From Candidatus Acididesulfobacter guangdongensis (lineage in GTDB: Bacteria; SZUA-79; Acidulodesulfobacterales; Acidulodesulfobacteraceae): 64,000 nucleotides of DNA. Made by a program: the position numbers and the translations under genes. Shown piece after piece: positions 8,257 through 63,293 of the stretch. The DNA is taken from assembly GCA_004195045.1 (NCBI GenBank), contig SGBC01000001.1, forward strand, positions 682,001 to 746,000, read 5' to 3'. Position 1 is the stretch's first letter. The number at the start of each line of letters is the position of its first letter. Under the pieces are notes generated by a model, which worked only from the letters and a program-made list of their open reading frames with translations, had not been told where the DNA came from and made no database searches.

Positions 8257-8760
8257 ATGGAAATAATAGAAATAATAGACGATAAAGAAATTAAAAATCA
8301 AAATATTAATTTTAACGGCAAAGATGTCGTAAATCATAAAGACAACGACAATGATGACAATAAGAAAGATGAAAACTCATACGAAAATTATTATGATGAC
8401 GATGACGATGACGATTATGACAATGACAATCAGGATGCTGCAGAATTAAAATTTACAATAAAGTCGCTGGAAGCCCTTGCTAACGAAAGCAGGCTCAAGA
8501 TATTTCGAATGCTTGTTAAAGCGGGGCATTCCGGTTTGACCGTTACAGAGATGTCTAAAAGCTTAAGCATGCCTATGAGCACATTATCGTTTCATCTGGC
8601 AAAATTAAGCCAGGCGGATATAATTTTATCTGTTAAAAAATCTAGATTCATAATTTATTCAATTAATTTTAAATCAGTAAATAAACTTATAGGCTATTTA
8701 ACCGAAAGCTGCTGCAACGGAAATCCCGAAGAATGTTTTGATGATATTTGTAAAAAATAA
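8257..8760 (+). CDS. arsR: ArsR-family arsenite-responsive repressor
   Basis: A 167-aa winged-helix repressor of the ars operon. Residues about 65-150 form the ArsR fold, with LEALANESRLKIFRML, the recognition helix MPMSTLSFHLAKL and a wing near 128. Near the C-terminus lies C152-C153 with C160 seven residues on, similar to the C-terminal As(III) site described for Acidithiobacillus ferrooxidans ArsR (C95/C96/C102); the last spacing is one residue longer. Oddity: a 65-residue N-terminal extension, strongly acidic and Asn-rich with an Asp run (from GAC/GAT repeats), absent from ordinary ArsR (about 100-120 aa). No internal ATG could replace the start before the HTH. Confidence 0.9.
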   Translation: MEIIEIIDDKEIKNQNINFNGKDVVNHKDNDNDDNKKDENSYENYYDDDDDDDYDNDNQDAAELKFTIKSLEALANESRLKIFRMLVKAGHSGLTVTEMSKSLSMPMSTLSFHLAKLSQADIILSVKKSRFIIYSINFKSVNKLIGYLTESCCNGNPEECFDDICKK

Positions 8761-9403: not shown

Positions 9404-11596
9404 TTGTATGAACTTAAACCGGCAGCATCAACAATTATGAAATATATGTTTTTTTCAGGAAAAGGCGGGACAGGCAAAACGACGATTTCATCGGCTACGG
9501 CTCTAAACTTTGCATTAAACGGCAAAAAAACTTTAATAGTTTCTACAGACCCTGCATCTAATCTTTCCGATATATTTGAACAAAATCTCAAAGAAGAAGA
9601 AACGAAAATAATTGGCACGGACAACTTATATGCTTCTGAGATTAATGCGGCAGACTCTTTAGAAAGATATAAAGCTAAAGTGCTGGGCGATTCAATTAAA
9701 GATTTGGATAACGATGTTGTTTCCATGATAGAAGAAGAATTTAAATCACCCTGCACCGAGGAAATTGCCGGTTTTGATGCTTTTACAGGTTTTATAGCGA
9801 GAAAAGATTTTGACGTGATAATTTTTGATACCGCTCCCACGGGTCATACGCTCAGATTAATGAGCCTTCCGTTAAAGTGGACTACTTATATCGAAGAGGT
9901 TAAGAAAGGGGAAGGAAGGACATGCATGGGGCCGGTTACAAATCTTGAAGGTTCCATTGAAGTATATAACGAAGCGTTAAGGATATTAACGGATGAAACT
10001 TCAACCAATTTTTCATTTGTTATGCGTCCTCAAGAGCTGTCGCTTTATGAAACCCTGCGTTCTATAGAAGAAATTAAAAGCGTCGGCATCAAAAATATTG
10101 AAATTTTAATTAATCAGGTTTTACCCGATAAGCTTGCTAAATTTAATACATTTGAAGAGCAGTATAAACTTAATGAAAAAATAATTGGACAGGCGAAAGA
10201 AACCGGCTATAAAATAAAAAAATATTATTTGATTCCTGAAGAGATAAAGGGTCTGGATTCTTTAAAAAAATTTATACTTATGGAAGATAAAAATTATGCA
10301 GAAAAATATTTTGCACAATTTTTTGACGGCGACGAAAATATCGGCTACGCGGTAGAACGCGATAATAGATACAGCAATAACAATGCAGGTACGGCAGACA
10401 GAGTCACTATAAATAAAGATAATAATATAAACATGAACGTAAATAAAGATGCAGATATAAGCAGCAATACAGATATCAAAATAGGCATCAAAGAAAATAA
10501 TTCAAATATTATTGCAAAAATTATTGATAAAACAAAGGACAGCATTGCTAAGAATGAAAAAAACGGCGAAAACACCGAAAATAATGGAAATAATGGAAAT
10601 AATGGAAACAGCGTATCGGCTAATGCAACAAAATTTATTTTTTTTATAGGAAAAGGCGGGACGGGGAAATCTACTATTTCTCTTTTAACAGGTTTATATT
10701 TATCTAAGTATAAAAACAAAAAAACATTAGTCGTTTCGGTCGACCCTGCAAGCCATATCGGCAAAATAATGGGTGTTGAATCAGTAGGTCAGAAACCTGT
10801 CCAGACTGAAAACAAAAATTTATTTCTTTCGGTAATATCGCCGGATGCGGCTTTGAGCGATTATAAAACAGATACAATGCAATTTTTCAGGAAAGTTTCA
10901 AACAACGCCGATTCCCTTAAAGTTTTGGAAGAAGAGCTTAATTCGCCATGTACCCTTGAAATAGCCTATTTTAAAAAGTTTTATAATTATTTTAAATTAG
11001 GGTACGAAAAAAATAATCTAAACGGGAATGCTAATAATTCCGGTATAAACATCAATGCCGGCGGCAATTTAAATCTAAATATAGAAATAGATAATGATAT
11101 TCAAAATAATATCTATGAAAATAATACATATGATAGATTAAAAGATAAATTTGATTATATCATTTTTGACACCGCTCCCACTGGACATGCTTTGAGGCTC
11201 TTATTTTTAGCTTTTGAATATCAGAAAGAAAATAAGAATAATAACAGCGTCAGAGATGAAGAGCTTGAATTTTTAATTAATACTATAACTGACAAAGACA
11301 AAACATATTTTTCTTTAGCACTGTACCCAGAATTTACTCCGGTTGAAGAAGCGTACAGGGCTTATAAAGATTTGAAAGAAGCCGGTATAGAAGTATCATT
11401 TTTAAGTATTAATTATCTCTTGAACGCCAAACTTAAATCAATAAAATTTTTTAAGGATAAAATTAATCAGGAATCAAAATATTTAAATGTTATTAAAGAA
11501 AAGTTTAATCTGCCATCTTTATATTTTGAGCAGTATCCGTATGAAATAAATTATAGTAATATAGAAAAATTTTTAAAAAATTCATTTGAATTATAA
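9404..11596 (+). CDS. arsA: ArsA arsenite-activated ATPase (two-domain)
   Basis: A tandem P-loop ATPase that normally energises the ArsB permease. Half A1: GKGGTGKTT, STDPASNL and DTAPTGHT; half A2: GKGGTGKST, SVDPASHIG and DTAPTGHA. The three As(III) cysteines are conserved (C117, C174 and C516 counting from the TTG). The linker (about 315-405) and a second insert inside A2 (about 545-580) are Asn-rich low complexity, making it 730 aa against 583 for E. coli ArsA. The start is uncertain: TTG at 9404 or ATG at 9437; neither has a close ribosome-binding site, while a perfect AGGAGG (9359-9364) sits about 40 nt too far upstream, as if the start region had been altered. Confidence 0.93.
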   Translation: MYELKPAASTIMKYMFFSGKGGTGKTTISSATALNFALNGKKTLIVSTDPASNLSDIFEQNLKEEETKIIGTDNLYASEINAADSLERYKAKVLGDSIKDLDNDVVSMIEEEFKSPCTEEIAGFDAFTGFIARKDFDVIIFDTAPTGHTLRLMSLPLKWTTYIEEVKKGEGRTCMGPVTNLEGSIEVYNEALRILTDETSTNFSFVMRPQELSLYETLRSIEEIKSVGIKNIEILINQVLPDKLAKFNTFEEQYKLNEKIIGQAKETGYKIKKYYLIPEEIKGLDSLKKFILMEDKNYAEKYFAQFFDGDENIGYAVERDNRYSNNNAGTADRVTINKDNNINMNVNKDADISSNTDIKIGIKENNSNIIAKIIDKTKDSIAKNEKNGENTENNGNNGNNGNSVSANATKFIFFIGKGGTGKSTISLLTGLYLSKYKNKKTLVVSVDPASHIGKIMGVESVGQKPVQTENKNLFLSVISPDAALSDYKTDTMQFFRKVSNNADSLKVLEEELNSPCTLEIAYFKKFYNYFKLGYEKNNLNGNANNSGININAGGNLNLNIEIDNDIQNNIYENNTYDRLKDKFDYIIFDTAPTGHALRLLFLAFEYQKENKNNNSVRDEELEFLINTITDKDKTYFSLALYPEFTPVEEAYRAYKDLKEAGIEVSFLSINYLLNAKLKSIKFFKDKINQESKYLNVIKEKFNLPSLYFEQYPYEINYSNIEKFLKNSFEL

Positions 11597-51940: not shown

Positions 51941-52122
51941 CCTTAATCTTGCAATAGAAAATATTTATGCATTTCTTTGCTCGGTTAAGCAAAATATAAG
52001 GAAAAAGTGTCGGATTTTATTTTTTTTGCATATGGAGTAGTTCAATTAACAAAGAAAATATTTGCAAAAAAATTAATCTGACACCTTTTCCAATTGGATA
52101 ACTTTCTATTGCAGGATTAAGG
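51941..52122. repeat. nested palindromic element (REP/BIME- or MITE-like), copy 1
   Basis: Outer arms CCTTAATCTTGCAATAGAAA (51941-51960) and their complement (52103-52122, one mismatch) enclose inner arms. The inner pair is 52000-52030, beginning GGAAAAAGTGTCGGATT, and 52063-52091, ending TCTGACACCTTTTCC. The whole can fold into one long hairpin. It lies between rplS and acyP. The inner GTGTC/GACAC hairpin resembles repeats dispersed by IS200-like (RAYT) transposases. An inverted relative is at 62028-62117. Confidence 0.75.
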
Positions 52123-52559: not shown

Positions 52560-53033
52560 TTAAGATGCGGATAGAAAAGACAGAACTGCCGCAACGTGGC
52601 CTTTAGCTTTTACGTTATGCCATATTTTTTTAACCGTGCCGTCTTTTGATATTAAATATGTAGACCTTATAATGCCTTTGGTGATTTTTCCGTATAATTT
52701 TTTTTCGCCGTATGCGTCATATACTTCGGCTATTTTTTTATCAGGGTCGCTTAATAGCGAAAAAATCAAATTTTGTTTTTCTTTAAATTTTATATGAGAA
52801 GCGACGCTATCCGGACTTACCCCCACAACATTGTAGCCTTTTGACAGCAGAGCATTAAAATTATCCCTGAAATCGCATGCCTCCGTAGTACACCCGGGCG
52901 TATTGTCCTTTGGATAAAAATATAATATTAAATCTTTATCCAACAAATCTTTTAATGAAAATATTTTTTCATTCCCGCTATTATCAATGCCGGACAATTT
53001 AAAATCGAATGCTTTATCCCCTTCTTTTAACAT
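52560..53033 (-). CDS. bcp: thioredoxin-dependent peroxiredoxin (Bcp/PrxQ)
   Basis: 157 aa peroxidase that reduces hydroperoxides. YFYPKDNTPGCTTEACDFRD carries the peroxidatic Cys in PGC and the resolving Cys five residues later, the PrxQ arrangement. GVSPDSVASHIKF and the final strands are typical. No signal, so cytoplasmic. It is divergent from the hyf genes, and a perfect 20-bp palindrome (53122-53141) lies in the shared upstream region. Confidence 0.95.
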   Translation of the reverse strand: MLKEGDKAFDFKLSGIDNSGNEKIFSLKDLLDKDLILYFYPKDNTPGCTTEACDFRDNFNALLSKGYNVVGVSPDSVASHIKFKEKQNLIFSLLSDPDKKIAEVYDAYGEKKLYGKITKGIIRSTYLISKDGTVKKIWHNVKAKGHVAAVLSFLSAS

Positions 53034-53319: not shown

Positions 53320-55521
53320 GTGCAAGGCAATACTTTGAACGGCATATCTATTTTATTCTTGTTCCTTCTGCTAATACCTATTATTATTTCATTTAATCCA
53401 AGACTATCTTTAATATTCAGTTCCGCAATATACCTGCTTCTTTCAGTTTTTTTGCTGTTTTCGCTATTATTCGGTTTTACAAAATTATCGCTGATGTTTC
53501 CGTTTTCGGTTCAACTGAATGATTTGTTCGGATTGAGTAATGCGTCTAATTCCGACCATATCACTTATCTAACCTCTATACCTTATCTTAATTTTTCATA
53601 TCTATTTGACAGCCTGTCGCTGCTTTTCGGTTTTTTAATAGCATTTTTAGGTTTCATCGCTTCGCTGTATTCAGTTAATTATTTATATGAAGAACATTAT
53701 AAAAATAAATCATTGTTTGTAATATTATTTAACGGGTTTATTATTTCAATGCTTTTTGTGGTGTTCAGCGCTAACGGTCTTTCATTTCTTATATTCTGGG
53801 AAATTATGTCAATCCTTTCATTTTTTCTTGTCCTGTTTGAATATGAGAAAGAAGAAAGCAAAAAAGCGGCAAATCTTTACATAATAATGACCCATATCGG
53901 CACATTTTTCATTTTTCTGCTATTTCTTTATATGTTCACGAAAACCGGCAGTTTCTCTTTTGAAGCTTGGAAGCGTTTAGGTATAAGCGGCAGTCTGAGC
54001 GCCGCAGGCATGCTGACGATATTTATTCTTACTATGCTTGGTTTTGGTATGAAAGCGGGTATCTTTCCCCTTCATGTATGGCTTCCGAAAGCTCATCCAG
54101 AAGCGCCGTCCGGCGTATCGGCGCTGATGTCCGGTATTATGATAAAAACTGCAATTTATATGATGATAAGATTTTATTTTGAATTTATGCAGTCGTACGG
54201 GTGGGGATTTGGCTTTACCGTTCTTTTAATAGGAGCACTGACACTGATTTACGGGGTTCTGAACGCCGGAATTCAGGATAATATAAAACGGCTTCTTGCA
54301 TATTCTTCAATGGAAAATATTGGAATAATGCTTATGGCATTGGGTTTAGCCATGATATTTTATTCTCAGAATATGTTTCTTCTGTGCGCGTTTGCGCTCA
54401 TGGCTCTTTTATTTCATATTATGAATCACGCCTTGTTTAAAGGACTTTTATTTCTGGGTTCCGGCGCTATTGCTTCGCAGGCTCATACAAAAGACATGAA
54501 TAAATTAGGCGGGCTGATTAAAAAAATGCCCAAAACATCATTTATTTTTCTTATAGGTGTTTTATCGGCGGCAACGCTTCCTCCGTTTAACGGTTTTGTC
54601 AGCGAATGGATGATTTATCAGTCTTTACTCATGGCAAGCAGCGTCAACGTTGAAATTATCAGGATATTTACCCCTATATTTGCTTCGGTTATGGCATTAG
54701 CCGGCGGGCTTGCGGCACTTGCGTTTGTCAAGGCATACGGTATATCTTTTCTTGGAAGAGCAAGGTCGCAGAGAGCAAATAACGCAAAAGAGCCCCCATT
54801 TTTAATGCTTGTGTCAATGAGCATTCTTGCATTCTTATGTTTTCTGCTGGGCATATTTTCATTTATAGGACTTTTGCCTATAAACAAAGCAGTTGAGGAA
54901 ATTACCAATGTATCTATTTATAAAAATATTGCAATATCTTACGGTTCAATAGTTACCCTTCCAAAGTACAGTCTGGGGGTTATTTCTCCAGTCGGGCTTC
55001 TGCTCGCAGGAATAGTTTTTATAAGCGCAATTTATCTGTTTATAAAAATATTCGGGAATATGAAGACTAAAGTTTTTGAAACATTTGCATGCGGTCTTGA
55101 GAATAAAGACGCTTATAATATTTCCGATGCTCAAATCAGTCAAAATATTTGTAATGCCGGCGATAATAATAACAATAATGATGATATAAATGTATATGCT
55201 AAAAGAAATAATTCTCAATATAGTTCAACCGGTTTTTCTCAACCTCTTAGAAGAATTTTTTCAGGACTTTATAATATTAAAGAACATTTAATAAATGAAG
55301 AATATAAAAGAAAATATTTTTTTCCGATTAAAAATTACGTATTTAAAGCGGGCGATCTGTTTGAATATTTTTATAATTCGTTTGCCGAAAAATTTTTGGA
55401 TAAGATTTCAAAATTGAGAGCACGCATTCAGGGCGGTGTAGTTCAAACTTATATAGCCTATATAGTAGGCACACTGATAATTTTATTAATATGGTTCAGC
55501 TGGTTTCATCACGCATTGTGA
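53320..55521 (+). CDS. hyfB: hydrogenase-4/complex I-like antiporter subunit HyfB
   Basis: 733 aa NuoL/MrpA-type membrane subunit with about 16 spans. The proton-translocation core has SFLVLFEYE, GMKAGIFPLHVWLPKAHPEAP and ALMSGIMIKTAIYMMIRFYF, then RLLAYSSMENIGIM with the channel Lys/Glu. The C-terminal part resembles HyfB/HycC rather than NuoL (FETFACGLEN near 580). An Asn-rich insert (about 600-640) interrupts that cytosolic end. GTG start with CAGGG before it. First of five hyf genes in one direction. Confidence 0.9.
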   Translation: MQGNTLNGISILFLFLLLIPIIISFNPRLSLIFSSAIYLLLSVFLLFSLLFGFTKLSLMFPFSVQLNDLFGLSNASNSDHITYLTSIPYLNFSYLFDSLSLLFGFLIAFLGFIASLYSVNYLYEEHYKNKSLFVILFNGFIISMLFVVFSANGLSFLIFWEIMSILSFFLVLFEYEKEESKKAANLYIIMTHIGTFFIFLLFLYMFTKTGSFSFEAWKRLGISGSLSAAGMLTIFILTMLGFGMKAGIFPLHVWLPKAHPEAPSGVSALMSGIMIKTAIYMMIRFYFEFMQSYGWGFGFTVLLIGALTLIYGVLNAGIQDNIKRLLAYSSMENIGIMLMALGLAMIFYSQNMFLLCAFALMALLFHIMNHALFKGLLFLGSGAIASQAHTKDMNKLGGLIKKMPKTSFIFLIGVLSAATLPPFNGFVSEWMIYQSLLMASSVNVEIIRIFTPIFASVMALAGGLAALAFVKAYGISFLGRARSQRANNAKEPPFLMLVSMSILAFLCFLLGIFSFIGLLPINKAVEEITNVSIYKNIAISYGSIVTLPKYSLGVISPVGLLLAGIVFISAIYLFIKIFGNMKTKVFETFACGLENKDAYNISDAQISQNICNAGDNNNNNDDINVYAKRNNSQYSSTGFSQPLRRIFSGLYNIKEHLINEEYKRKYFFPIKNYVFKAGDLFEYFYNSFAEKFLDKISKLRARIQGGVVQTYIAYIVGTLIILLIWFSWFHHAL

Positions 55522-55675: not shown

Positions 55676-56662
55676 ATGTTAATGTTAAATAATGATTTAT
55701 TAAATTTTAATGCTGTTTTAATAGGAATTGCACAAATTCTGATTCTTATTTTAATAGCGCCGTTTGTAAACTCTTATATAAATAAAATAAAAAGTATTTT
55801 AAGAGGGCAGCAGGGAAGACCTTTATTTCAAGGGTATAAAGATATCTTTAAACTTATACGCAAAGAAGTCGTCCTTTCGGAAGATGCGTCATACATTTCA
55901 AGATTCGCGCCGTATATAGTTTTTGTTTCTATTTTGGTTTCCGCCTGTTTTTTGCCGGTATTCAGTTCTGATGCGCTTCTGTCGTTTACCGGAGATATTA
56001 TAGCGTTGGTTTATACCATAGGACTCGGCACTTTTTTTATGGCATTATACGGTATGGACCAGGCTTCAAGTTTTGGAGGTCTTGGTTCCAGCAGGGACAT
56101 TCTGATAGCTTCTCTGGCTGAGCCGACTTTGATGCTGGTTATCTTTACTTTTGCGCTGCAGACAAGAACTACCAATATAAGCCAGATTTTTATAGATATA
56201 CATAAAAACGGTTTTTTAAATTATCCTGTTTCATATGTTTTAGCATTGATGGCATTTTTAATAATTTCTATTGCCGAAAACGGAAGAATACCCGTTGACA
56301 ATCCAGATACCCATCTGGAACTTACCATGGTTCACGAAGCTATGATACTTGAAGGTTCAGGAAGGCATCTTGCTTTGTTTGAATATTCGTCTTATTTAAA
56401 ATTAATAATATTCATAACGCTCGCTTCTAATATATTTCTTCCTATAGGGGTGTACGGCGGCATCCCGCATTCGCTATCGTCATTTTCGTTTTTGACAATA
56501 TTATATGCAATTTTATTTTATATTCTAAAAGTGTTAATTTTTGCAACGCCAATAGCTTTTATTGAGATATCGATGGCGAAATTGAGGTTTTTCAGGGTGC
56601 CTGATTTTTTGATGCTGGGATTTGTTCTGTCTATAATTTCATTAGTTTTGTATTCTATTTAA
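55676..56662 (+). CDS. hyfC: HyfC/HycD-type membrane anchor (NuoH-like)
   Basis: 328 aa with about eight spans, homologous to NuoH. Hallmarks are SILRGQQGRPLFQGYKDIFK (about 40-60) and VDNPDTHLELTMVHEAMILE (about 203-222), the acidic quinone/hydrogenase-facing loop. It anchors the catalytic module to the antiporter subunits. Confidence 0.92.
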   Translation: MLMLNNDLLNFNAVLIGIAQILILILIAPFVNSYINKIKSILRGQQGRPLFQGYKDIFKLIRKEVVLSEDASYISRFAPYIVFVSILVSACFLPVFSSDALLSFTGDIIALVYTIGLGTFFMALYGMDQASSFGGLGSSRDILIASLAEPTLMLVIFTFALQTRTTNISQIFIDIHKNGFLNYPVSYVLALMAFLIISIAENGRIPVDNPDTHLELTMVHEAMILEGSGRHLALFEYSSYLKLIIFITLASNIFLPIGVYGGIPHSLSSFSFLTILYAILFYILKVLIFATPIAFIEISMAKLRFFRVPDFLMLGFVLSIISLVLYSI

Positions 56663-56666
56663 ACGG

Positions 56667-57326
56667 GTGATTATGCTGAATATAACAAGTTTTATTGAAC
56701 TTATGGGCGCATTTGTTTTATTTTTTGCCATACTGCAAACAGCAAGCCACAGAGTTGATTTTTCAATTAAAGTTTACAGTATTCAATCGTTGTTTTTAAG
56801 CATAACTATTTTTGTTATGGGCATATATTCCAATAATGCCGAACTGTATCTGTCAAGTTTTCTTACTTTTGCCATAAAGGTTATAGCGATACCGTATTTT
56901 TTAAATAAAGTAACCAAGAGAATCTCTATAAGAGAAAAGATTGTCCCATATATTAATATGACTAATTCCGTATTGATTACCGGCGCTATAACAATATTTG
57001 CTTTTTTTATAACTAAGGGGGATTTTGCAAGTCATGAATTTATTGCGCGCAGGGTTTTTCCTACAGCTTTGGCGGTTATTTTAATAGGCGTTTTTATAAT
57101 GATTGCGCGTAAAAAAGCAATTATACAGATTATCGGTTTTTTAACTTTAGATAACGGAATTATTCTTGCGGCGACCTCTATCACTAAAGGTTTACCGCTT
57201 GTTGTAGATATAGGGGTGTTTTTTGACGTGTTTATAGGGGCTATTATGGCGGGCGTGCTGATATACCGCATAAGAACATCGTTTGACAGTCTTGATACAT
57301 CAAAGATGTCTAATTTAAAAGAATAA
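56667..57326 (+). CDS. hyfE: HyfE-type membrane subunit
   Basis: 219 aa, about seven spans, HyfE family (related to NuoK/MrpC). Typical features are YFLNKVTKRISIREKIVPYI in the first cytosolic loop and GFLTLDNGIILAATSITKGL near 155-175. It starts 4 nt after hyfC (GTG 56667, or ATG 56673). No HyfD gene is present between C and E; a B-C-E-F-G layout is also known for related complexes. Confidence 0.88.
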   Translation: MIMLNITSFIELMGAFVLFFAILQTASHRVDFSIKVYSIQSLFLSITIFVMGIYSNNAELYLSSFLTFAIKVIAIPYFLNKVTKRISIREKIVPYINMTNSVLITGAITIFAFFITKGDFASHEFIARRVFPTALAVILIGVFIMIARKKAIIQIIGFLTLDNGIILAATSITKGLPLVVDIGVFFDVFIGAIMAGVLIYRIRTSFDSLDTSKMSNLKE

Positions 57327-57404: not shown

Positions 57405-58871
57405 GTGGCTATTTTAGTTTTAACATTTTTGATTTTTGCAATTTTATACAGATTTATCAATATAAAACTGACATTTTTTATTCAGCCGGTTATTACACTT
57501 TTAATTTTGCTGTACGCTCTATTTCTTACCGGCATTGTTCTTAAGCACCGGATAATATTCGGCTTTTATCACCTGTTATTTCTGGATTCTTTAAATGCCG
57601 TTCTTATTATTATAATCGCTTCGCTGTCTTTTTTAGTTGCTGTTTACTCTATAGGATATTTTAAAAATGAATTAAGATCAGGGCTTCTTGAAAATAAAGT
57701 AAAAGAATATTATTTCTGGATGAATTTTTTTATTTTTGCTATGCTTTTGCTTTCAATTTCAAACAATCTCGGTATCTTGTGGGTAGCGATTGAAGGCACT
57801 ACGCTTGCAACCACTTTTCTTATCAGTTTTTACAGAAATAAAGAAGCGGTTGAAGCCGGCTGGAAATATATTATAATATGCTCTGTCGGAATTGCTTTTG
57901 CTTTTTTCGGAATTGTGCTTTTATATTTTGTATCTTCAAGTTTTCTTGGCGAAGGTTTGAACGCTCTTAACTGGACTGATATAATGAAAGTTGCGCCGCA
58001 TCTTAATAAACATATTTTAGATATTGCTTTTATTTTTGTTTTAGTCGGTTTCGGCACAAAAGTCGGTTTTGCTCCATTCCATTTCTGGCTGCCGGATGCG
58101 CATTCGGAAGCGCCCACGCCGGTCAGCGCTTTAATGTCCGGAGTGCTGCTTAATTGCGCATTGTATGCTATCATAAGAATTTATGCTATTTTAAATATGG
58201 ACGGGCAGGCGTATTTTGCCAATGAACTTCTGATGTTTTTTGGATTGTTTACGGTATTTATCGCATCTATTTTTATAATCAAACAAAATGACTATAAAAG
58301 GCTTCTGGCTTATTCTTCAATGGAGCACATGGGCATAATTGCTTTTGCGTTCAGCATAAGTACTCCGCTTGCTATATTTGCGGCGATTCTTGGAATGATA
58401 AACCACGCCTTTACTAAAAGTCTCATGTTCTTTTCAACCGGTTCAGTGCTGTCAAATTATCATACGAAGAAAATCTCGGATATCAGGGGCTTGTTCAAAA
58501 TTTTGCCTTTTACGGCAGTATTTATGATAATAGGCGTTCTGGCTATTACCGGAAATCCTCCGTTCAGTATTTTTATAAGCGAATTTTTAACGCTGATAGC
58601 TTCGTTTAAAGCAAATTACGCTCCAGAAGGCATATTGATGCTGAGTTTTTTAGTTGTCATATTTATAGGGTTTATCAGGCATTTTGTGGGAATGGCTGCA
58701 GGAGAGCCTGTTCTTGAGAAAAAAAAGGAAAGTATTTATATGATTTTACCGATGTTCTTAATTTTAATAGTTATATTGACTTTCGGAATTTATATTCCAG
58801 AAGATTTTAAAATTCTGATAAATAATATTGTAGTGATAGTTAAAGGTGTTCATGGCAGCAAGCTGCAGTGA
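57405..58871 (+). CDS. hyfF: HyfF-type antiporter subunit (NuoN/MrpD-like)
   Basis: 488 aa with about 14 spans. The conserved core ILWVAIEGTTLATTFLISFY, GFGTKVGFAPFHFWLPDAHS, PVSALMSGVLLN and RLLAYSSMEHMGI gives the channel Glu, Lys and His residues of the family. GTG start 78 nt after hyfE. Second antiporter-like subunit of the complex. Confidence 0.9.
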   Translation: MAILVLTFLIFAILYRFINIKLTFFIQPVITLLILLYALFLTGIVLKHRIIFGFYHLLFLDSLNAVLIIIIASLSFLVAVYSIGYFKNELRSGLLENKVKEYYFWMNFFIFAMLLLSISNNLGILWVAIEGTTLATTFLISFYRNKEAVEAGWKYIIICSVGIAFAFFGIVLLYFVSSSFLGEGLNALNWTDIMKVAPHLNKHILDIAFIFVLVGFGTKVGFAPFHFWLPDAHSEAPTPVSALMSGVLLNCALYAIIRIYAILNMDGQAYFANELLMFFGLFTVFIASIFIIKQNDYKRLLAYSSMEHMGIIAFAFSISTPLAIFAAILGMINHAFTKSLMFFSTGSVLSNYHTKKISDIRGLFKILPFTAVFMIIGVLAITGNPPFSIFISEFLTLIASFKANYAPEGILMLSFLVVIFIGFIRHFVGMAAGEPVLEKKKESIYMILPMFLILIVILTFGIYIPEDFKILINNIVVIVKGVHGSKLQ

Positions 58872-58915: not shown

Positions 58916-60388
58916 GTGGAAAAAATGGAAAATAAATCAGTAAATAAATCGATCATTAAATCACTTAATAAAGCTGATTTTATTAAAAATTTAAGCAATG
59001 ATATTGTAAATATTATTAACGAATATTTTTTTAATCGTGATAACGAGCTTGTTATAAAAATTAATCTGAAAGATTTAAAAAAAATATGTCTTTATTTTTC
59101 TAAAGATTTAAAATTTTATTTATTGTCGGCTTTTGCAGCCTATGAGAGCGGATATGCGTCTTCAGGAAAGACATACAGTAAAAATAGGAGCGATAATTAT
59201 AAGAATAATAATAAGACTAACGATAATAATTCCGGTGACGATATAGATGATAATAATAAGAGCAATAATTTCAAATTAAGATACATTTTCTCTCATTCGT
59301 CTATGGATTTATTTATAATTATAGAAACATATGCCGATGCAGACGGAATATTCCCGTCTTTATCGGCGGATATGCCGGTTTTAAATTGGTATGAAAGAGA
59401 GATTAAAGACTTGTTCGGATTAATCCCTGAAGGACATCCCGACCCGAGACCGCTTATGCTGTTTCCCGAAAATTATCCTCAGGATATCAAGAATAAGGAT
59501 GATTTTGCAAACGATGCACATGATGATAATACTTATGTGCCGCCGCTGAATAAGGATAACGTTGCAGACAATACGGAAACTGATGCCGATAAGCTTAATA
59601 TCGGCAACTCCGCAAACGATATGCAGAACAGAAATAGTTTTAATTTTAATTCTGCAAAATGTCATCCTCTCAGAAAAGATTATCCGTCAGATTTGAGACC
59701 AGAATTTAAAAAATACGGAGAATATAATTATAATAAAGATGTTAAAGGAGACGGGGTTTTTAATATATTGGTCGGACCGGTTCACGCAGGCATAATCGAA
59801 CCTGGCCATTTCAGATTCTGTATGTCGGGAGAACCAATACTGCAGTTAGAAATAAGGCATTTCTGGAAACATAGGGGAATAGAAAAAATTGCTGAAGGAA
59901 AAACAATAGATGAAGCACTGTCTTTAGCCGAAAAAATATCTGGCGACCATTGCGTAGCGCATTCTTTGGCCTTTTTATCTGCGGCAGAAAAGATTTTAGA
60001 TATAAAAATATCTGATAGAGGACTATACCTGAGGACTATTTATGCCGAATTGGAAAGGCTGCTGTGTAATATTAATGATTTTGCGTGGCTGTTCCAGGAC
60101 GCGGGATACAGCTTTGGTGCACAGGAGACCTTTGTGCTTAAAGAAGATATTATGGAATTGAACAAATATCTGTCAGGGAGCAGGTTCAACAAAGGCGTTT
60201 TATCTCTCGGCGGTATAAATGCATGCGGAGATATAGATGAATTGAAAAAAAAGATTTTGCTGGAAAAATTACCAGATTTTAAAAAACGTTATTTGAATTT
60301 GAAAAAAATGCTTTTAAATTCTTCTACTATTCAGGAAAGATTTGAAGAAACAGGATATATAAACAAAGAAACCGTGTTGGATTTATGA
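58916..60388 (+). CDS. hyfG: HyfG-like large subunit, truncated and lacking Ni ligands
   Basis: 490 aa: an N-terminal NuoC-like domain (WYEREIKDLFGLIPEGHPDP near 160-180) fused to the start of a NuoD/hydrogenase large-subunit domain (VGPVHAGIIEPGHFRF near 285-300, EIRHFWKHRGIEK near 312). At the first nickel motif, where group 4 hydrogenases have ERxCGxC, it reads EKISGDHC: Ser342 and His345 replace both cysteines. The protein stops right after TGYINKETVLDL, so the second half with the C-terminal CxxC is absent. Two Asn/Asp-rich inserts (about 85-120 and 195-255). Small subunit gene (hyfI) also absent. Confidence 0.85.
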   Translation: MEKMENKSVNKSIIKSLNKADFIKNLSNDIVNIINEYFFNRDNELVIKINLKDLKKICLYFSKDLKFYLLSAFAAYESGYASSGKTYSKNRSDNYKNNNKTNDNNSGDDIDDNNKSNNFKLRYIFSHSSMDLFIIIETYADADGIFPSLSADMPVLNWYEREIKDLFGLIPEGHPDPRPLMLFPENYPQDIKNKDDFANDAHDDNTYVPPLNKDNVADNTETDADKLNIGNSANDMQNRNSFNFNSAKCHPLRKDYPSDLRPEFKKYGEYNYNKDVKGDGVFNILVGPVHAGIIEPGHFRFCMSGEPILQLEIRHFWKHRGIEKIAEGKTIDEALSLAEKISGDHCVAHSLAFLSAAEKILDIKISDRGLYLRTIYAELERLLCNINDFAWLFQDAGYSFGAQETFVLKEDIMELNKYLSGSRFNKGVLSLGGINACGDIDELKKKILLEKLPDFKKRYLNLKKMLLNSSTIQERFEETGYINKETVLDL

Positions 60389-60463
60389 TAAATAATTCTT
60401 AATTAAAATTTTAAATTAATAATTATAAGTATTATATAAGAACTAAACCTCTTATAATTTGCG

Positions 60464-61408
60464 CTAAATTTGATGAGCAACGCAATAACCGTTGTTTTTT
60501 TTACACATTGTTAGTTCAGGCTGTATTACGGTATGATTTATTTTAAACTTCTTTGACAGCATATATTGAATATTATTTATTATACAACATAAGTCGGCGG
60601 AATCTTTAATTTTATCATCTATCAACACATGCGAGCTAAGAAGTATAAAAGACTTTGAAAGACTCCATATATGAAGATCGTGAACATTTTTTACACATTC
60701 TACTTTAAGGATTTCTTCCTGAACTTTTATGTAGTCTATTTCTTTAGGGACGGCTTCCAGCAATATATTTATAGTCTCATTTATTACTGAAAAAGCCCCA
60801 ATGGCAATGATAGGCGCTACAAATAAACCTATAGTTGTGTCAAAATAATATAGCCTCGTTAAATATGTTAAAATACCTGCTATTATTATTGAAAAAGAAA
60901 TAATGCTATCTCCTATTATATGAAAAAAGGAGCTTTTTATGTTTAAATTTTGATGAGTATCTTTATAAATTTTAAACCCTATTATTATATTAATAATAAA
61001 ACTTATTGACGCAAACAAAATCATAAGTTTAGAATTTACTATTTCAGGATGAATTAACCTTAAGTAGCTTTCGTACATTAAAACAATAGAAATGATTAAT
61101 AATAAAGCCGCATTCAACAAGGCGGTAAGTATGCCAAGCCTATGAAAACCGTAAGTATTTTTAGCGGTAGGTTCTTTTTTTATCTGAGATTGAGCAATCC
61201 ATGCAAGCAATAAAGAAGACGCGTCCACAAAAATATGACCGGAATCGGCATAAAGCGCCATGCTTTTTGATATTATGGCGCCGAAAAATTCCGTTGCAAG
61301 CACGCATAATGTTAAAATAAAGGCTAATTTTAAATTTTTTTCATGCCGAATATGATTATGTTCATCCATAAATAATATATCATAAACAATATATAAAAAA
61401 GGCTTCAT
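60464..61408 (-). CDS. CDF-family divalent-metal exporter (ZitB/CzcD-like)
   Basis: Up to 314 aa; the better start may be ATG 61369 (301 aa), giving the family's His-rich opening MDEHNHIRHEKN, but neither start has a clear ribosome-binding site. Six spans. The transport site is ADSGHIFVDAS in TM2 and HIIGDS in TM5, a D-x3-H-x3-D type arrangement with H-x3-D, typical of zinc-group CDF proteins. The C-terminal ferredoxin-like domain has NVHDLHIWSLS. It probably exports Zn/Co/Cd/Fe. It is convergent with truncated hyfG and lies only 76 nt from it, so the break in hyfG is at this junction. Confidence 0.9.
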   Translation of the reverse strand: MKPFLYIVYDILFMDEHNHIRHEKNLKLAFILTLCVLATEFFGAIISKSMALYADSGHIFVDASSLLLAWIAQSQIKKEPTAKNTYGFHRLGILTALLNAALLLIISIVLMYESYLRLIHPEIVNSKLMILFASISFIINIIIGFKIYKDTHQNLNIKSSFFHIIGDSIISFSIIIAGILTYLTRLYYFDTTIGLFVAPIIAIGAFSVINETINILLEAVPKEIDYIKVQEEILKVECVKNVHDLHIWSLSKSFILLSSHVLIDDKIKDSADLCCIINNIQYMLSKKFKINHTVIQPELTMCKKNNGYCVAHQI

Positions 61409-61456
61409 ATTTTATATATTGTTTAATTTTAATAAAATAACTAATTTTGCTTTAAT

Positions 61457-61865
61457 TTATTTAATTACTCGGAAATCTTTAAAATTTGAAAGACTATCTT
61501 GTCCATAAAGTTTTACTTCTTTCACTTTAACGTGAGCAGGTCCGATATGAACTATAGGTATAAGTTCTTTAATTTTTTCCTCTTCTCTTCTGACTTTACC
61601 GCTATAAACAAATTCAATTTTTTCAATTAATGGCGAATGGGCGAGAAAAGTTTTTTCAACGCCTACGCCGTATGAATTTTTTCTAACCGTAAATGAAAAT
61701 CTTATTCCCGAACCTCTTTTAGCAATAACTACGCCTTCAAATATCTGTATTCTCTGTTTATCGCCTTCTTTAATTTTCTGATGAACTCTAAGAGTATCCC
61801 CTGCTTTAAATTCCGGAATATCTGTTTTTAAGGCTTCATGTTCAATTTTTTCTACTGATATTCAT
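61457..61865 (-). pseudogene. chimeric rplS::acyP relic, inverted
   Basis: The first about 85 codons are a second bL19: [40 protein letters not shown], ending SGKVRR. They continue in the same frame into the last 43 residues of acylphosphatase: [34 protein letters not shown] and stop. An extra A after ATGAATATC (near 61854) removes the start from frame. Differences from the genuine rplS and acyP are mostly synonymous, so the parts diverged under selection before joining. Opposite strand to the functional pair at 51.4-52.4 kb. Confidence 0.88.
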
Positions 61866-62027
61866 TGAATAAATCTGTTTCACTCTTTATTATAATATTA
61901 AACTGTTCCCTTTGTCAATACTTTTTTTTAATACCAAATAGGTGGATTAGTTAAACGTATATTTTAGTATTTTATATTAAATTATAATTATTAGCCTTTG
62001 GAAAGTCTGAAAAATAAAATTTATTTC

Positions 62028-62117
62028 GGAAAAAATATCAGATTAATTTTTTTGCAAATATTTTCTTTGTAAATTGGATGTTTCGTATACAAAGAAATAA
62101 ATCGGATACCTTTTTCC
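62028..62117. repeat. palindromic element, copy 2 (inverted relative of 52000-52091)
   Basis: GGAAAAAATATCAGATTAAT (62028-62047) and on through TTTTTTGCAAATATTTTCTTTG matches the reverse complement of the inner part of copy 1. The right arm is 62090-62117, ending ATACCTTTTTCC. It lies next to the rplS::acyP relic, as copy 1 lies next to rplS and acyP, so both were part of the same duplicated block. Confidence 0.72.
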
Positions 62118-62285
62118 ATTTATAAATTTAAAAAATAATAGAAAATATTACAAGGTTCAATGAAATAAAATAAAAAAATGACTGCAGAAAAGTCAAACTT
62201 GGGGATTATTTTTTTCTAATGCAGGATTAAAGATTAGTTTGTTTGATGATTGATTTTTTAAAGGTTGGACTGTATAATACTAATT

Positions 62286-63293
62286 ATGAATGCAATTAAT
62301 AATACTGAAGATGCTTGCGATAACCATAACAGCCATGTTTCAAATTGCCTGATATGCGGAAGCAAATTACAATATCTGCAATCTTCTAAGGAATTGACCT
62401 GTTTTTACTGCGGAAAAAAAGAAAAATCAAATATTGTCTGCGCAAATGACGAATCGCATTACGTCTGCGATGATTGTCATAGTATCTCTTCAATTAATTA
62501 TATTAAAGAATTTGTTATAAATACTGTCATCGAAAATCCTTTTGAAATTGCATTGTCTATATTAGAAAATAAAGACATTCCAATGCTTGGATGTCATCAT
62601 TGCTATATTTTAACCGGTTCAGTTCTTGCAAGTTTGAAAAATAAAAAGCTTTTTAATATAGGCAATGAGGATATAGAAGAGGCTTTTTTCAGATTATCGA
62701 AACAGGCTGTAGGAGGCTATTGCGGACTAAGCGGCGTGTGCGGAATTGTCCCTGCCTGCGGTGTTATTTATTCCATTTTAACGGGGGCGGTTTGCGGCAA
62801 AGATATTGAGCAAAAAATTACTATGGGTTTAACATCGGCTGTTTCAAATGCCATTTATGAACTCACAGGACCTTCATGCTGCAAAGCATATATGTTTAAA
62901 GCTCTTGAAATTATCATTACCGATATTTACAGGGATTTCGGAGAAGTCATTTCCGGTAAAGATTTTGAAATAAAATGCGGTTTTGTCGAATTACATCCTC
63001 ACGGGTGCAGAAAAGAGAAATGTCCTTATTATTCAGGCGTAATATTTAACTATAATAATAATGAATTTTCTTGCATATCGGCAGCCGCTGCGGAAAACAA
63101 AAATTCATTAATCTCAACTTCTTCAAATTTATTATCTGCTTCGTCTTTATCCGCTTTATCCGCGGCTGATTTAAATGCCGGTTCGCCGGTTGTCCCAGAA
63201 CAGTTTGAAAAACAGCTTGAAAACAATAAACTCAATGCCGTAAAATATACGTTTGGCGAAAATAAGGTAAAAGCTGACAGCGCTCCATGCTGA
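62286..63293 (+). CDS. DUF5714-type cysteine-rich protein
   Basis: 335 aa from ATG 62286. The N-terminus has two Cys pairs of zinc-ribbon type (CLICGSKLQY.. LTCFYCGKK) and CANDESHYVCDDCHS. The body contains LGCHHCYILTGS, GGYCGLSGVCGIVPACG and GPSCCKAYMFKAL, then HPHGCRKEKCPYYSG, more than 15 cysteines in fixed spacing. This is the DUF5714 family, often near radical-SAM or corrinoid-linked genes in anaerobes; its function is not established. The last 60 residues are Ser/Ala/Asn-rich and unconserved in appearance. Cytoplasmic. Confidence 0.72.
   Translation: MNAINNTEDACDNHNSHVSNCLICGSKLQYLQSSKELTCFYCGKKEKSNIVCANDESHYVCDDCHSISSINYIKEFVINTVIENPFEIALSILENKDIPMLGCHHCYILTGSVLASLKNKKLFNIGNEDIEEAFFRLSKQAVGGYCGLSGVCGIVPACGVIYSILTGAVCGKDIEQKITMGLTSAVSNAIYELTGPSCCKAYMFKALEIIITDIYRDFGEVISGKDFEIKCGFVELHPHGCRKEKCPYYSGVIFNYNNNEFSCISAAAAENKNSLISTSSNLLSASSLSALSAADLNAGSPVVPEQFEKQLENNKLNAVKYTFGENKVKADSAPC

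Follow-up and report, generated by a model that had tools for sequence, protein, structure and literature searches.

The operon considered here encodes four membrane subunits and a large subunit, HyfG, that has no nickel ligands and stops early, which raises the question of whether it specifies an ion channel of new function or is a complex of known type that has been damaged. It lies in a 64-kb stretch of DNA, hereafter the window, which corresponds to positions 682001-746000 of contig C1 (906 kb) of genome G000 (2.22 Mb, 5 contigs, completeness 99.19%, contamination 0%).

Table 1. Features of the disrupted operon and its surroundings, in window positions.
Feature	Position	Strand	Size	Remarks
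hyfB-like antiporter subunit	53320-55521	+	733 aa	Intact; NCBIfam hydrogenase 4 subunit B, E=1.3e-173, under the curated cut-off
hyfC-like (NuoH-type) subunit	55676-56662	+	328 aa	Intact; Pfam NADHdh, E=1.4e-34
hyfE-like subunit	56667-57326	+	219 aa	Intact; NCBIfam hydrogenase 4 membrane subunit, E=1.7e-23, under the cut-off
hyfF-like antiporter subunit	57405-58871	+	488 aa	Intact; NCBIfam hydrogenase 4 subunit F, E=2.2e-137, under the cut-off
hyfG, truncated Ni-less Ehr large subunit	58916-60388	+	490 aa	L1 site SGDH, residues 342-345
Tract identical to G003	60191-63049		2859 bp	Flanking identity about 92%
String GATTTATGATAAAT at the break	60380-60393	+	14 bp	Found in full-length G001 74 bp further into hyfG
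Replacement segment	60388-61986		1599 bp	Substitutes for 1142 bp of G005 sister sequence
CDF-family cation efflux gene	60464-61408	-	314 aa	TIGR01297, E=2.2e-64
Acylphosphatase (acyP) region fragment	61432-61587	-		92-93% identity to G002/G006, where it lies beside the CDF gene
rplS (L19) fragment	61585-61898	-		93% identity to the G002/G006 type
hyfI remnant	61987-62017	+	31 nt	Last 31 nt; ..LLAFGKSEK-stop, in sisters ..LLAFGKPIK/PVK-stop

The antiporter-like and NuoH-like membrane subunits of an Ehr complex are all present, and the open reading frames of hyfB, hyfC, hyfE and hyfF are intact, as originally predicted. The charged channel residues of the window HyfB are kept in 10 of 10 aligned family sequences. 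The gene set hyfB/C/E/F differs from the Mrp set.

The start codons of the sister genomes point to the ATG at 58925 as the start of hyfG. In Pfam searches, its product showed a NuoC-like domain (residues 111-187), the beginning of a NuoD-like domain (residues 404-489, limited to positions 10-93 of the 271-position profile) and a NiFe-hydrogenase match below threshold. Aligned to the full-length HyfG of G005, the stub keeps 420 of 599 residues, corresponding to about half of the hydrogenase-like domain. Asn/Asp-rich low-complexity inserts occur at residues of about 80-115 and 195-245 and are absent from the sister species; such inserts are also present at window positions 8257-8760 and 9404-11596, in otherwise ordinary proteins.

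Codons 342-346 of the window HyfG read S-G-D-H-C, which bears out the replacement of both cysteines of the first nickel motif by Ser342 and His345. Group 4 [NiFe] hydrogenases carry CxxC at both L1 and L2; in the window protein L1 is SGDH and the L2 region is missing. Full-length HyfG of the sister genomes has SGD at the first CxxC and LSYxG (LSYAG) at the second, with a C-terminus of ..FPIVNKSLNLSYAGNDL, so that the second motif is replaced too. Among the best 80 of 579 confirmed loci in a scan of named genomes, whose search patterns were built on the query and are biased towards sequences like it, 67 have a HyfG lacking both CxxC motifs and 12 have both; the other one (L103) has a Ni-less first site followed by the end of the contig, and it is uninformative as an independent truncation. 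In the HyfG tree (98 rows with 8 left out, a quick method and several long branches flagged), one branch with a support of 96 separates 82 Ni-less rows, including the window sequence, from 16 rows with CxxC. Because the same replacements are found in full-length sister HyfG and in 67 of the best 80 of 579 loci, the loss of the nickel ligands is ancestral and family-wide. The window HyfG is thus a group 4-like large subunit without Ni ligands, as in Ehr complexes. Non-hydrogenase relatives of group 4 complexes with lost Ni sites are established. In the accessible text of PMC10284858 and PMC4378227, Ehr large subunits without CxxC nickel motifs are described as being of unknown function, and Ehr complexes with a Ni-ligand defect also appear in that of PMC6349859.

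The truncation is a different matter. Homology of the window to G001 and G005 breaks at 60387 and resumes at 61987 (blastn and alignment), with the loss, through the intervening replacement, of the 179 C-terminal codons of hyfG and of hyfI apart from its final 31 nt. Because homology to the sisters breaks instead of shifting frame, the hyfG stop is neither a sequencing error nor a point mutation. The original prediction placed the end of the protein just before the region leading to the second CxxC; the stop is indeed early, but the alignment leaves a gap of about 150 residues. When aligned with HycE of Escherichia coli, the stub stops ahead of the region with Arg395, Glu437, Arg478, Asp529, Cys531 and Cys534 (the last placed from the CxxC spacing); the roles of the first five are treated in the accessible part of PMC9474812.

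The 60388-60470 junction was compared in the relatives. In five of the seven genomes of the genus (G001, G002, G004, G005 and G006), the reading continues as a full-length hyfG with the C-terminal 179 residues and an adjoining hyfI, giving the complete large and small subunits of an Ehr complex, which are missing in G000 and G003. All seven further family loci (L042-L048) likewise have a full-length HyfG and an adjacent HyfI-like ORF. The missing HyfG C-terminus and HyfI have no credible match anywhere in the 64-kb window, and a whole-genome search placed them on no contig of G000 or G003, yielding distant paralogues only; the idea that the missing half lies elsewhere in the genome was rejected. 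At the locus, the proximal [4Fe-4S] ligands of a small subunit are absent, with only the hyfI tail remaining. The absence of a small subunit gene therefore holds for the locus but not for the genome, which has paralogues in a second hyf-like cluster and in Nuo. We conclude that the HyfG truncation is a local lesion, a replacement at this locus, and that it and the nickel-ligand loss have separate causes, one recent and one old. A 158-aa frame in G017 says nothing on truncation because the contig ends there, at 52871. A literature search on truncated Ehr or HyfG found nothing relevant, and the accessible part of PMC6776010 makes no mention of hyf or hydrogenase.

The first 8 bp, GATTTATG, of the 14-bp string at the break also occur at the break position in the intact hyfG of G001, and after them the window follows the second G001 copy for 6 more bases. 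A short-repeat deletion may have created the TGA stop of hyfG, although this pattern is suggestive only. Downstream of mbdU in G006 there is a second hyfI-like fragment (L040:13473-13658; G006:C60:23472-23657) with 68% identity and one stop, which hints at repeated rearrangement at this spot.

The CDF gene in the replacement segment shows 93-94% DNA identity to that of G002, G006 and G004. In G002 and G006 this gene adjoins rplS and acyP, and a counterpart is found in G004. The acyP and rplS pieces of the window are debris because the intervening parts are missing, and the own rplS of G000 is about 86% alike to the rplS fragment. These identities point to a chromosome segment resembling a related species of the G002/G006 type as the probable donor.

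The disrupted junction is common to the G000 and G003 assemblies and lies within a tract that is identical in both. Between 60191 and 60387 a single site of 197 separates the window from the intact G001, whereas identity at 59640-60190 is 93.1%; this part of the disrupted haplotype therefore diverged recently from a G001-like allele that was intact. Over window 62261-63000, which belongs to the mbdU part of the tract, the G000/G003 pair is about 93-94% identical to G001. This fits the opposite direction of transfer and makes the tract a mosaic, for which a single clean donor is a poor fit. The lesion looks recent, and these identities suggest either a recent transfer of the disrupted haplotype from one species of the genus to another or chimerism of one of the contigs. 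The mbdU homologue itself (metal-binding double selenoprotein; window 62265-63293) matched NF045648 with 299.5 bits, below the cut-off of 600. A repeat of about 90 bp at window 62026-62114 and 52002-52091 occurs at dozens of places in G000 and at few in the relatives, and its strand folds into a hairpin.

The sharp edges of the identical tract could possibly come from a chimeric G003 contig, and they also bear on whether the truncation is an assembly artefact, with an intact hyfG-hyfI in the true genome and a mis-joined CDF junction. At the left edge, an exact match to G001 over 135 bp could make a short-read assembler switch paths, and the named records of the genus are metagenome bins. However, the same junction is present in two assemblies, the hyfI tail has the correct place and orientation, exact runs with G001 near the right edge reach only about 32 bp, and neither genome has the missing pieces on another contig. 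Given also the length of C1 and the completeness and lack of contamination of G000, we regard an artefact as unlikely. Full-length hyfG-hyfI in sister genomes had been named as a finding that would refute the original reading and point to a simple deletion or misassembly; the sister genes exist, but a simple misassembly of one genome does not account for G003, which has the same junction, even though its contig could be chimeric.

In our judgement, the window very probably contains an Ehr operon of known type in which the end of hyfG and hyfI were replaced by the CDF segment, leaving it inactive and in early decay. The intact operon has the order hyfB-C-E-F-G-I and a large subunit without a nickel site. 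HyfI of intact relatives keeps the four proximal [4Fe-4S] cysteines (CxxC..C..C), and the intact complex can therefore carry the cluster. By analogy with the complex I superfamily, electrons reaching HyfI would drive ion movement via HyfC, HyfE, HyfF and HyfB. Because of the cluster cysteines of HyfI and the redox genes flanking the full-length operon at L042, the sister complexes can be read as redox-driven ion translocators. In the window lineage, a segment that resembles the chromosome of a related species and contains the CDF gene and the remains of acyP and rplS has taken the place of the 179 C-terminal codons of hyfG and of hyfI apart from its tail, and the remaining genes would represent an operon in early decay. 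A complex that has lost its electron route, cluster site, substrate cavity and the canopy and proton-path region should be inactive, and the window complex is most likely dead. The two options of the original prediction, a Ni-less complex that was truncated in addition or an operon cut off at the CDF junction, thus hold together, and its interpretation is partly supported overall. A reading from a single genome merges two separate causes into one seemingly exotic enzyme. A broken energy-conversion operon can also be common to two species, inside a tract with a metal-efflux gene.

One point speaks against decay: the reading frames of hyfB, hyfC, hyfE, hyfF and the hyfG stub are all open, and purifying selection has acted on them. 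In the G000-G003 comparison, dN/dS was 0.10 for hyfB, 0.03 for hyfC, 0 for hyfE and 0.05 for hyfF, with no internal stops. For the part of hyfG before the tract, it was 0.22 in the same pair, a value that includes poorly aligned low-complexity stretches, and 0.10 between G003 and G001. Given the apparent youth of the lesion, these values reflect mostly the time that preceded it, and we rejected them as proof of a functioning stub complex. If the lesion were old, the purifying selection would argue for continued use of the stub operon.

The selection values, together with channel residues and membrane genes that are intact in both truncated genomes, could also be taken to mean that HyfB-C-E-F and the stub are retained to work as an ion channel or antiporter independent of redox chemistry. 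Relatives in which both HyfG and HyfI lack redox ligands keep the channel residues as well, and redox centres are therefore not strictly needed for the persistence of such complexes. These relatives, however, have full-length HyfG and HyfI, whereas the stub has lost half a domain and HyfI altogether, and dN/dS can hardly cover the time after a lesion that looks so young. Retention as a channel is therefore highly unlikely in our view, and the proposal of a new-function channel built from an antiporter module and a stub found no support, as selection before the lesion explains the low values. The chance is similarly slim that the rump HyfB-C-E-F, as a reduced form of the six-subunit complexes without redox ligands in these relatives, moves ions without a redox step and is useful alongside the imported CDF exporter in acid, metal-rich water.

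A second hyf-like cluster with the order C-E-F-G-I-B lies downstream of the broken operon, at a distance of about 16 kb (G000:C1:758-766 kb; L033:16087-19001 and L034:1-5177). It also lacks the Ni motifs (IAGTHAF and YNFSVAA) and has a ferredoxin-HyfI fusion. A small-subunit paralogue is found in the Nuo operon of G000 at about 285 kb. The stub might conceivably borrow a small subunit and a C-terminal half from this cluster or from Nuo, as a hyfI-like gene with SGSCGAC and GCPP motifs is among the genes of the cluster. However, it already has a full set of C, E, F, G, I and B, its HyfG C-terminus and HyfI are only about 24-35% similar to the missing parts, and supply in trans of half a folded domain is implausible, which makes borrowing exceedingly improbable.

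The broken-operon reading places the window copy among the Ehr complexes, with which it shares HyfB/C/E/F/G(/I) homologues and a large subunit without either CxxC nickel motif; it differs in lacking the last 179 HyfG residues and nearly all of HyfI. FDH-Ehr complexes have been proposed for Riflemargulisbacteria and Saganbacteria, according to the accessible text of PMC6349859. The gene neighbourhood of L042, where a molybdopterin oxidoreductase and a NuoE-NuoF fusion flank the full-length operon, is compatible with that proposal, whereas no such genes were seen beside the window operon. The best match of solved structure in the profile search was E. coli formate hydrogenlyase (HycE, 7z0s; E=3.8e-90). 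HycE and hydrogenase-4 have the same NuoC-NuoD fusion layout as the window HyfG, but HycE contains all four Ni cysteines and the window family none. The MBS of Pyrococcus furiosus (6u8y) is likewise a group-4-derived complex that lost Ni binding, and it works via the proximal cluster (PMC7684303, accessible part). MbsL keeps two of the four cysteines and MbsJ has its own cluster arrangement, whereas the window has no small subunit.

Separately, small-subunit ligands were scored in a wider set. Loci L075-L152 have a HyfI-like ORF in 67 of 78 cases, and with five reference rows 72 sequences were compared: 53 have four proximal cluster cysteines, one retains three, and the other 18 retain one or none. 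The 18 cysteine-poor sequences, which have lost 3-4 of the 4 cysteines and mostly have Asp instead (GSDNAC, GDDA, GDPP), come from 16 loci (L126, L127, L141, L097, L108, L123, L143, L114, L130, L139, L140, L142, L149, L135, L147 and L151) and the reference rows L049 (G048) and L050 (G043). HyfG has neither CxxC in all 16 loci and both reference rows. Six separate subunit ORFs are present in 14 of 17 loci (L050 not included; the HyfI frame of L097 is incomplete); in two others HyfE is missing as a separate ORF and the HyfC ORF is oversized, probably owing to fusion, and one is cut by the contig end. HyfB Glu161, Lys245, His252, Lys323, Lys374 and Glu429 are kept in 16 of 16 sequences and HyfF Glu130, Lys219, Lys298 and Lys338 in 17 of 17, as are key HyfC residues where examined; several other family-conserved charged residues are lost. 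A literature search found no description of Ehr or CPR complexes in which the small subunit lacks these cysteines; Marreiros et al. 2013, cited for Ehr, was outside that search, and an earlier description may exist. These operons occur in CPR bacteria, methanogens and others, outside the window clade, whose HyfI keeps the cysteines. They are possibly redox-free members of the complex I superfamily, which would make the question of an ion-pumping arm without electrons directly testable and would be more interesting than the broken operon.
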